Of a stretch of 64,000 bases of DNA, positions 11,989 through 58,687 are shown piece after piece. The stretch is taken from positions 108,449 to 172,448 of the forward strand of contig CADAPM010000005.1 of the NCBI GenBank assembly GCA_902789795.1. The letters run 5' to 3'. The stretch is from an uncultured Eubacteriales bacterium. GTDB lineage: Bacteria > Bacillota > Clostridia > Christensenellales > Aristaeellaceae. The notes beneath the pieces were generated by a model. It made no database searches, was not told the DNA's origin, and saw only the letters and a list, made by a program, of their open reading frames with translations. Position 1 is the stretch's first letter. The number at the start of each line of letters is the position of its first letter. Made by a program: the position numbers and the translations under genes.

Positions 11989-12196
11989 CGGTTAGACAAT
12001 CGGGTCTGTGGTTGTAAGCCGATGCCAGTCGCAGGCAAAGCGGTCCACGTAAGTCGTCCAAAGCGTCGATGAGCATGGTGCGGTTTAGAAGTAAGTCCGA
12101 CCGGGATTCCCGAGAGAGCAGCGTGAGGGCGCTATAGCGCAGAGCAAAGCTCCTGTCGGCGAGTGTGGGGTCAAAGACCAGGTCAGCCGGTTATCA
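11989..12196 (+). ncRNA. Dense structured RNA, raiA-motif candidate, upstream of a zinc-ribbon gene
   Basis: About 208 bases follow the promoter without an ORF and fold into many short helices. Pairs seen: AGAC 11994-11997 with GTCT 12004-12007; ATCGG 11999-12003 with CCGAT 12019-12023 (mutually exclusive with, or a pseudoknot through, the first hairpin); GTGG 12008-12011 with CCAC 12045-12048; TGCC 12023 with GGCA 12034; CCGAC 12097-12101 with GTCGG 12155-12159, enclosing CGGG-ATT-CCCG, GCGC-TATA-GCGC and GAGC-AAA-GCTC; and GGTC-AAA-GACC 12169-12179. Size, base composition and the strong promoter resemble the raiA RNA motif of Clostridia, but I cannot run a covariance model, so the class name is tentative. 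No terminator separates it from the zinc-ribbon gene, so it could also be a cis-acting leader. Confidence 0.6.
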
Positions 12197-54959: not shown

Positions 54960-55592
54960 TCATAATACCATACTGTACGCCTGTACGTCAAACGGCTCGC
55001 AGGCTGCGTCCTGCCTCAGGTACAGCGGGTGATGGGGATGCCCCTTTTTGCTCCTTTTCCCAAAGGTGACCCATTGGGCCCCACGGTGCTCCGCGATCGG
55101 GATGAGATCCCGGAGCAGTTCCGCCAGGTAGGGGCGCTTTTCGATCATCGTCCCCCAGGCCGCCCAGACCACCGGGCGCTCGGAAAGCCCCAGGGCATAT
55201 GCAAAAGCTTCCGCGTTGCTCTGGCGGAGGACGTCCGGGTACTGCGCGGCCATATCATCCGGATCGGTGGCCCGCTGAGCGCAGAGGTTGAGCATCATGA
55301 AGGAGTCGTACCCATTTTGAAGGGCGATGCGCTCCACGCTCTGCAGGGTGGGGTCCAGATGGTCCGGCCGGGCGGTGGAGGGGTTGATGCCGATGCAGAT
55401 CAGCGGCTTCACTCCCCGGGTGCCCAGCAGGTACCGGTATTCCGTATACGCCGGCGGCACGAACAGCCACCGGGAGACGTCGTAATCCTCCCGGGGCTTT
55501 CCCGCCGCTTCGATCGCCTCCGAAAAGGGCAGGATGTCCATCTGTCCCAGGTCGCCGGACGGCACATGCCGCCTTCCCACAGGTTCCGACAT
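54960..55592 (-). CDS. DUF1643 family protein
   Basis: The 210-residue cytoplasmic protein has the DUF1643 core: YRYLLGTRG, ICIGINPSTA, NLCAQRATDPDD and VVWAAWGT, ending with FGKRSKKGHPHHPLYL. Its function is unknown, although conserved polar residues suggest an enzyme. ATG 55592 is chosen because GAGGAGG lies six bases upstream; longer starts would fall inside that site. It is the last gene after metI. Confidence 0.82.
   Translation of the reverse strand: MSEPVGRRHVPSGDLGQMDILPFSEAIEAAGKPREDYDVSRWLFVPPAYTEYRYLLGTRGVKPLICIGINPSTARPDHLDPTLQSVERIALQNGYDSFMMLNLCAQRATDPDDMAAQYPDVLRQSNAEAFAYALGLSERPVVWAAWGTMIEKRPYLAELLRDLIPIAEHRGAQWVTFGKRSKKGHPHHPLYLRQDAACEPFDVQAYSMVL
54962..54991 (-). promoter_or_regulatory. 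Promoter of prsW and following genes
   Basis: Minus strand TTGACG (54991-54986), an 18-base spacer, TATTAT (54967-54962). It overlaps the last codons of the DUF1643 gene, so the 54.9-to-48.4 kb genes can be expressed independently of metQNI. Confidence 0.65.
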
Positions 55593-55603
55593 GGCGGGCC
55601 TCC

Positions 55604-56313
55604 TCACTGCTTCAGGCGCTTATCCGACTTACGGGCCAGCCAGGTGCCGAAGGACTGGAACACCTGCACCAGGATGACCAGCACGATCAGCGCCGCGATC
55701 AGCACCGCCTGATTGTAACGCTGCTGGCCCTGGGTGATCGCCAGGTTGCCCAGGCCGCCGCCGCCCACCGCGCCGGACATGGCCGTGTAGCCGAGGATGG
55801 TGGTAATGGCCGTCGTAAAGCTGGTGATCAGCGAGGGCACGCTTTCGGGCAGCATGACGTGGAAGACCGTCTCCCAGGTGGACGCGCCCATGGACTGGGA
55901 CATTTCAATGATGTTGGGGTTCACTTCCCGCAGGGATCCCTCCACCAGACGCGCCACGAAGGGAAACGCCGCGATGATCAGCGGCACGATGACCGCCGCG
56001 TTGCCGACCGCCTTGCCCACGATGGCACGGGTGATGGGCATCAGCACGACGATCAAAATGATGAACGGCGCAGAGCGCAAGAGGTTGATGAATCCGTTCA
56101 GGAAGCTCATCAGCGGCTTGGGGAGCGGGCGGATGCCCTTGGCATCGCCGGTCACCAGGAGCACACCCAGCGGCAGCCCGATCAGGATGGCGAACAGCGT
56201 CGCCATCAGCGTGATATAGAGGGTTACGCCGGTCTGGGCCAGGAAATCCGTCCTGATGACGTCCCAGGCCTTCGCCAGCTTGTCGGGATTGAAATAGGTC
56301 TGGATATAGTTAT

Positions 56314-58475: not shown

Positions 58476-58506
58476 AACAAAAACAGGCGCCCTTTGCGGC
58501 GCCTGT
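58476..58506 (-). terminator. Attenuator-type terminator in the metQ leader
   Basis: Minus strand ACAGGCGCC (58506-58498), loop GCAAAG, GGCGCCTGT (58491-58483), then TTTTGTTG. A perfect 9-base-pair GC-rich stem with a U-tract, 27 bases after the leader-peptide stop and 120 bases before metQ. GCCGCAA (58500-58494), in its left arm and loop, can pair with TTGCGGC inside the leader ORF (58555-58549). Confidence 0.92.
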
Positions 58507-58533
58507 CATGAGAAGGTCATGCCTTCAAAACCA

Positions 58534-58626
58534 TCACATCCGGCAGCAGCCGCAAGCAAGCGAAGAACGGCACATGCACATCTGCATGCACCAGCGGCGC
58601 ATACCCATCATCGCGTTCAGCTTCAT
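58534..58626 (-). CDS. Met/Cys-rich leader peptide (30 codons)
   Basis: An ATG at 58626, eight bases after AAAGGAG, opens a 30-codon frame ending in TGA (58536-58534). Methionine stands at positions 1, 6, 7, 9, 14, 16, 18 and 30 and cysteine at 13, 17, 19, 25, 27 and 28, so 14 of 30 residues contain sulfur. The start region reads MKLNAMMGMRRWCMQMCMC. It is followed by a small hairpin (GAAGG-CATGA-CCTTC, 58524-58510) and an intrinsic terminator. Position, composition and structure match leader peptides of amino-acid operons controlled by ribosome stalling. The alternative, a functional metal-binding micro-peptide, is not excluded. Too short for standard gene finders. Confidence 0.72.
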   Translation of the reverse strand: MKLNAMMGMRRWCMQMCMCRSSLACGCCRM

Positions 58627-58658
58627 GTCGGCTGCTCCTTTCCTTAAAACTTGGGAAT

Positions 58659-58687
58659 ACACTATCACAATCGTTTTTCGATGTCAA
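58659..58687 (-). promoter_or_regulatory. Promoter of the metQ leader
   Basis: Minus strand TTGACA (58687-58682), a 17-base spacer, TAGTGT (58664-58659) with an extended -10 TG one base upstream. It lies directly after the mazG stop and about 33 bases before the leader-peptide start. Confidence 0.72.

Follow-up and report, generated by a model that had tools for sequence, protein, structure and literature searches.

What controls the synthesis of the methionine importer in an uncultured clostridial bacterium, where the metQNI genes are preceded by a very short reading frame crowded with methionine codons and by a transcription stop signal? The methionine genes of Bacillota are textbook cases of riboswitch and T-box regulation, in which the S-box (SAM riboswitch) and the methionine T-box act through premature termination of transcription. 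The attenuators of the trp, his and leu operons of enteric bacteria consist of a short leader ORF with many codons for the amino acid whose pathway is controlled, a terminator, an antiterminator inside or just after the relevant codons, and the pathway genes downstream. All of these parts, the antiterminator as a candidate, recur before the metQ gene of the window (the whole 64,000-nucleotide stretch of DNA analysed here), and the tiny Met-rich gene and stop signal probably test for methionine shortage before the importer is made.

The locus lies on the minus strand between 58687 and 55604, in the order promoter, ribosome site, Met/Cys-rich leader ORF, intrinsic terminator, second small ORF, metQ, metN and metI. 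The promoter (58687-58659) has a -35 element TTGACA (58687-58682), a spacer of 17 nt and a -10 element TAGTGT (58664-58659) that is weak, matching three of six consensus positions and absent from the output of a promoter consensus scan; TTGACA is also found upstream of the leaders of two related loci, L002 and L027. A Shine-Dalgarno site AAGGAG (58640-58635), with AGGAG or a close variant before the related leaders, precedes the leader ORF MKLNAMMGMRRWCMQMCMCRSSLACGCCRM (58626-58534), whose 30 codons include eight for Met, counting the start, and six for Cys. Codons 6-19 (58611-58570), with Met at 6, 7, 9, 14, 16 and 18 and Cys at 13, 17 and 19, are the putative stalling site, and codons 24-26 contain TTGCGGC (58555-58549). 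Next comes the terminator hairpin GACAGGCGCC-GCAAAG-GGCGCCTGTT (58507-58482) with its U-run (58483-58476); GCCGCAA in its 5' arm and loop (58500-58494) is complementary to TTGCGGC, as an earlier note on this DNA had stated. That note also placed the promoter, ribosome site, ORF, terminator and metQ correctly, all of them readable from the sequence. Its terminator is present as well, with a stem that it gave as nine base pairs and that computation makes ten, the outermost being G-T. It missed a second conserved uORF, MIRIGSAIDRMRCS (58459-58415), which has its own ribosome site, AAGGAGG (58474-58468). The importer genes, identified by profile matches, are metQ for the methionine-binding protein (58355-57495), metN for the ATPase (57381-56314) and metI for the permease (56317-55604). 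Directly after metI lies a gene for a DUF1643 protein (54960-55607, minus strand), whose GTG start overlaps the metI stop and which is possibly a member of the metQNI operon.

The best model for this arrangement, and in our judgment very probably the right one, is attenuation of transcription by a translating ribosome, as in the trp, his and leu operons; the device would sense charged tRNA-Met, perhaps also tRNA-Cys, and control metQNI. The ORF, its codons, the terminator, the cross-species alternative pairing and the importer genes are there to be read; we infer the transcription start, the stalling, the direction of control and the sensing of charged tRNA. RNA polymerase would start at about 58652, and a ribosome would begin the leader. 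With ample Met-tRNA the ribosome would reach the stop codon and cover the 3' end of the leader (58555-58549), so that the terminator could form and transcription would end before metQ. During methionine shortage the ribosome would stall on codons 6-19 and leave the leader 3' end free to pair with the left arm and loop of the terminator, allowing transcription to continue into metQNI.

The first point to establish is that the leader is exceptional. It holds 13 internal Met and Cys residues (seven Met among the 29 residues after the start, and six Cys), a count that reaches at most seven among the other 79 Shine-Dalgarno-led ORFs of 20-45 codons when the window is scanned on both strands, and again at most seven among 2206 such ORFs on the plus strand of 30 Markov-shuffled windows. 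The window leader is thus a strong outlier in Met plus Cys. Conservation was examined by searching for metQ in the genome of the window and 99 relatives, and in named genomes. This gave 74 upstream regions, namely 17 family loci (15 long metQ matches and two members of a group of diverged paralogues) together with 57 named relatives, which are mainly uncultured Clostridia, a few being labelled otherwise, e.g. Treponema; L033 was dropped as a copy of L011, and L089-L110 stand outside the 74. Leaders were picked by ribosome site and Met/Cys content only, and weak or RM-type candidates (see below for the RM-uORF) were dropped before counting (L032, L041, L045, L050, L064, L071, L079, L082, L092, L093).

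On these terms a Met/Cys leader with a ribosome site stands upstream of 33 of the 74 metQ genes (14/17 in the family of the window, 19/57 among the named relatives) and is lacking upstream of the other 41. When related metQ upstream regions are compared, as the earlier note had proposed, a Met-rich ORF with its ribosome site is found together with the terminator before these 33 genes. Within the genus of the window, seven of eight genomes have the leader; the only metQ seen in the remaining one, G001, is of the classical type. The device is also present in L039, recorded as Oscillibacter sp. ER4, where the leader begins MKTSYSANCMMMPMMRMFSMCMLCHG. Loci read later added leaders in six of nine cases, made up of five of eight loci of a metQ paralogue group and L181. 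A core M-x-M-C-M is common to the leaders, the remainder of which differs widely.

Which amino acid is being sensed? An attenuator of the same build could respond to cysteine, or to Cys and Met jointly as a general sulfur-starvation sensor, and the six Cys codons of the window leader, the median of three Cys over the 33 leaders, and the occurrence of Cys-Cys-Arg-Met in other leaders, before both metY and metQ, all speak for such a signal. Two of the 33 leaders, however, have no Cys at all and three have a single one, whereas internal Met never falls below four, has a median of seven and makes up 22% of the residues after the start. Moreover, the genus has four leaders of nearly the same sequence, in which none of the six Met codons of the run has changed but Cys13 and Cys19 have not been preserved, so that two Cys positions drift where Met positions are fixed. 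Since five of 33 leaders have no more than one Cys while the Met minimum is four, Met rather than Cys is, by comparison of the leaders, their constant signal. Cysteine as the main signal was judged unlikely, and we give a cysteine or joint signal roughly one chance in eight. The suggestion of a Met, and perhaps Cys, attenuator made in the earlier note is therefore upheld for Met, Cys having turned out not to be constant.

Every one of the 33 leaders is followed by a hairpin and a U-run, 15-49 nt past the stop codon, and so are all six of the leaders read later. The hairpin finder works without a threshold, and a control with shuffled segments was therefore added: 32 of the 33 hairpins are at -11 kcal/mol or stronger (median -17.4), vs 3 of 330 shuffled segments, the weakest being that of L013 at -6.9 kcal/mol.

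The antiterminator demands more care. In the window, the seven-base complementarity by itself is no more than chance would give (p 0.45 and 0.64 against shuffles), and most single-species pairings are no better than shuffles, although those of a few single leaders are. The comparison was consequently made over species, with the 3' part of each leader (codon 19 to the stop) set against the left arm and loop of its own terminator or of the terminators of other species. Duplexes of leader and own terminator have a mean of -19.2 kcal/mol vs -15.3 kcal/mol with species permuted (z -7.4, p <= 1e-5, 100,000 permutations). The z value is -6.9 after removal of six close relatives and -7.5 for the loop +/-3 nt alone, where the loop bases are dispensable for the terminator hairpin itself. 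Matched changes of loop and leader include ATCG/CGAT (L068, L086), TTTG/CAAA (L040, L054), GTTG/CAAC (L061) and TTCG/CGAA (L006, L066); in L029 the pair that opens the window duplex is C-G where the window has U-A, with both sides altered. Leader-terminator pairing has thus been kept while the sequence changed, which is the covariation that the earlier note called for. On this comparative evidence the alternative pairing is the antiterminator, and the case for it is collective over the species.

Folding calculations agree with the two proposed states. With a ribosome placed on a middle Met codon, and with transcripts cut before the terminator 3' arm, 29 of 33 transcripts have the left arm and loop paired for the most part with the ORF, compared with 187 of 330 when foreign terminators are substituted. 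With the ribosome at the leader stop, all 33 terminators are left free. Some of the results are less tidy: in five leaders (L002, L013, L046, L060 and L073) the strongest duplex is not placed neatly downstream of most Met/Cys codons, and the own pairing of the six later leaders ranks 1, 5, 8, 8, 10 and 21 of 38. A fixed-offset block test, using the sequence after the last early Met in 30 of the 33 leaders, was weaker (p 0.008); such an ungapped test suffers because loop sizes differ, and the duplex-energy permutation replaced it. An unrestricted ungapped motif search in the leader 3' halves returned the M-C-M core itself. Taken at the level of sequence, the defining features of an attenuator that were tested are all present: a Shine-Dalgarno-led ORF, an excess of Met codons, a terminator and, collectively, an antiterminator.

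Three other explanations of the leader have to be weighed against these results. The recurrent M-x-M-C-M core could belong to an arrest peptide, whose nascent chain would sense SAM or free methionine in the exit tunnel instead of charged tRNA; yet the surroundings of the core vary freely, its position in the chain shifts, and conservation is confined to the pairing and to how many Met codons there are, all of which makes this reading improbable. The ORF might instead be incidental to an RNA that binds a metabolite or a protein. The conserved alternative RNA pairing is the sole point in favour of this view, and ribosome site, frame and Met codons are preserved over diverged sequences. In addition, the leader site belongs to no known RNA family in an Rfam scan of the whole window, where the nine matches are one raiA RNA and eight tRNAs; at gathering score neither the T-box (RF00230) nor the S-box/SAM riboswitch (RF00162) matches upstream of metQ, and near the metQ genes of the 57 named relatives the only Rfam match is a T-box at L072. 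(Of the 74 loci, the scans covered that of the window and those of the 57 relatives.) We regard an incidental ORF as very improbable.

The same slight chance is given to the view that the leader encodes a useful Met/Cys-rich small protein, e.g. for metal binding, with the terminator merely ending its transcript. Met/Cys-rich peptides can bind copper, but the leader has no Pfam or NCBIfam match above cut-off, the terminators pair specifically with their own leaders, and leaders are so far known only before metQ-type genes. The search for others was weak, however. At E < 0.03 a leader-peptide profile found only metQ leaders on which it had been trained, in 8 genomes. Leaders later seen before metQ paralogues in G004, G009 and G014 escaped it, so that its silence at other genes says little; its weaker matches, L139-L153, include L146, which is the known leader of L012.

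If the leader is a methionine attenuator, as we favour, how widespread is it? In a class-wide sample of 147 genomes, none of nine permuted metQ loci (see below for the permutation) had a Met/Cys leader, two of the nine (L264, L270) being probably the same contigs as L075 and L056. Because the device is absent from these nine loci, it is restricted to certain lineages and is not a feature of the class. Of the classical metQ loci in that sample, 44 of 50 were read, the start of L277 being doubtful; at many of them metQ is possibly the last gene of an operon, so that a leader farther upstream would escape detection. In G005 (L029) and G007 (L027) a leader nearly identical to that of the window precedes the gene for a MetQ paralogue that shares only about 30% identity with the window MetQ, as if leader and gene had been exchanged.

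Other devices are found at some of the loci where the leader is not. In streptococci, a site TATAGTTTSAAACTATA bound by CmhR controls metQ and other methionine genes (PMC5359408). A similar palindrome, TATA-N9-TATA, precedes 19 of the 74 metQ genes (5/17 in the family, 14/57 among the named relatives), with 21 occurrences vs 0.9 expected. It occurs together with the Met leader in three loci and in 16 of the 41 leaderless ones, and none lies within 500 nt before the window metQ; the streptococcal system, moreover, works through a DNA-binding protein and not through translation. Leader, RM-uORF and CmhR-like site are all absent from 21 of the 74 loci, and a MET-box-like site occurs in three of the nine permuted loci of the class-wide sample. 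Riboswitches and T-boxes are not rare in these bacteria. S-boxes were found in 40 of 60 genomes searched, including that of the window, where the match is at a contig end, and T-boxes in 59 of 60; the genome of the window has one S-box and nine T-box matches (E up to 0.001). They differ from the metQ device in where they stand: nine of ten S-box loci read in relatives precede metK (judged by eye, with one fragment checked by profile; the tenth is L113), and L072 is the only one of the 57 named metQ genes with a T-box. The contrast with S-boxes and T-boxes drawn in the earlier note was thus right in part. Leader peptide, DNA site and T-box are interchangeable before one gene family, metQ.

Comparison with the enteric trp, his and leu attenuators shows the same plan, from the leader ORF with its excess of one amino acid, through terminator and antiterminator, to the pathway genes downstream. 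The metQ device differs in using Met, in its clostridial host and in having a second uORF between terminator and gene. Leader peptides as such are not foreign to Bacillota, and to that extent the earlier note's view of a misfit with the phylum must be qualified. The ilv-leu operon of Staphylococcus aureus has a leucine-rich leader-peptide attenuator supported by selected mutants (PMC5794164); it differs in serving a biosynthesis operon, with Leu/Ile as the amino acids, and in that its proposed antiterminator pairs with the U-run, whereas that of metQ pairs with the arm and loop. In bacilli, His leader peptides are predicted before hisZ and hisS where relatives have T-boxes, and were, to their authors' knowledge at the time, the first outside Proteobacteria and Actinobacteria (PMC2965389); these concern histidine and synthetase-type genes and are predictions only. 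No report of a methionine leader peptide was found in the open-licence PMC literature, where absence is weak evidence. What is new is therefore methionine as the amino acid of leader-peptide attenuation, the bacterial group, and the tandem uORF, in a phylum whose methionine genes are otherwise the textbook cases for riboswitches and T-boxes.

The device also bears on transcription-translation coupling. Bacillota are classed at the phylum level as having runaway transcription in a 2026 paper (PMC13323073), a state that such a device must locally overcome. Since it needs a ribosome close behind the polymerase, a conserved device argues for local coupling, and it opens to test the view that in these Clostridia lineages the two processes are linked, at least on a local scale.

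The second uORF of the window, here called the RM-uORF, is conserved as well. Its core is the codon pair CGA-ATG (58432-58427), followed in the window by CG. In the region from -135 to -40 there are 36 copies of the hexamer CGAATG, spread over 33 of the 74 loci, with 1.9 occurrences expected and an average of 1.6 loci for hexamers of the same composition. In 31 of the 36 it is read as CGA-ATG in the frame of an ORF led by a ribosome site (two and two in the other frames), and in 34 TG or CG follows. Among the paralogue loci the RM-uORF is present in six of eight, in four of these in tandem with a Met leader, and it is found in two of the nine permuted loci of the class-wide sample. A local hairpin around CGAATG was considered, and is not claimed, the region being only slightly more paired than shuffles.

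A pattern built on one clade (Arg, any, Asn, Ile/Phe/Leu/Met, CGA-ATG-YG) gave 30 matches in 291 genomes of the class, of which 16 are such uORFs; the other 14, being no uORF before metY or metQ, were dropped. Fourteen of the 16 stand before metY (O-acetylhomoserine sulfhydrylase; neighbours recognised by eye, two confirmed by profile); the remaining two precede metQ, which in one case is of the classical lipoprotein type. Relaxing the pattern to any Arg codon at R-M, with the next codon free, gave 19 matches: the same 16, a seventeenth uORF before metY with CAA as the next codon (L200), and two unrelated frames with CGG and AGG for CGA (L184 and L185), one a 29-residue frame before an unrelated ORF and the other inside a 536-codon frame. 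All 17 uORFs use CGA, while over the 16 distinct sequences of the original pattern six codons are found at one of the other two Arg positions and five at the other. An arrest peptide of the TnaC/ErmCL type, a reading considered for this uORF, would be expected to keep residues at its C-terminal end through synonymous changes. In the clade R-x-N-F-R-x-G-R-M is kept with free codons except CGA; the other RM-uORFs, including that of the window, share R-M only. Because CGA is invariant while the other Arg codons vary, this clade is constrained in the peptide and, at a single position, in the codon too.

It is conceivable, though we put it forward only tentatively, that the RM-uORF represents a type of sensor for sulfur amino acids that depends on translation and has not been described before, whose core is the codon pair CGA-AUG and not an RNA fold, and in which one Met codon would sense starvation. 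The sensor would comprise an in-frame CGA-AUG, usually followed by UG or CG, in a short uORF some 50-130 nt before metQ or metY. With a CGA in the P site held by weak inosine-adenine wobble, reading of the AUG that follows might need Met-tRNA to an unusual degree, and the stalled ribosome might shield the mRNA or alter initiation of the next gene; in the window, where the Met leader would gate transcription, the RM-uORF could then add a further gate acting on translation or on the stability of the mRNA. Yeast has inhibitory codon pairs, CGA-CGA for example, and bacterial leaders using them were not found in the open-licence PMC literature, absence again being weak evidence. The tandem CGA-AUG uORF, common to metQ and metY, lets one ask whether a single codon pair can be a nutrient sensor.

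A third arrangement was seen in passing, in which M-C-C-R-M is followed by a CTCCCGGG strand and a matching terminator; the gene behind it is metY in L203-L205 and a classical metQ in L278, L279 and L282, so that it is seen in distant families and at two different sulfur genes. A palindrome ACCTATTGACAnGGTAGGT, or close variants of it, lies over the -35 element before metY in L154, L166, L168, L169, L176-L178, L203-L205 and L214, and before metQ in L181, L278, L279 and L282. We take this palindrome to be the likely operator of an Rrf2/CymR-like repressor.

Circular permutation marks the MetQ protein: in the family profile, positions 31-165 match the C-terminal half of solved MetQ relatives, and positions 186-279 the N-terminal half. 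With 4ib2, for example, the match (E 8e-92) consists of two swapped stretches. The best stretches of all 22 solved relatives, found by sequence, fit the classical order. By BLAST, the permuted order is present in 91 loci (duplicates included) and the classical order in 30. Relative to classical MetQ/NlpA, the window protein has no lipobox Cys near its N terminus. Its structure model is a confident one (pLDDT 93), and in Foldseek only about one half (83-146 columns) aligns, among the solved MetQ-type chains listed. Elsewhere in the window, at 11995-12195 on the plus strand, lies the raiA RNA, a large conserved structured RNA, with a score of 176 bits.
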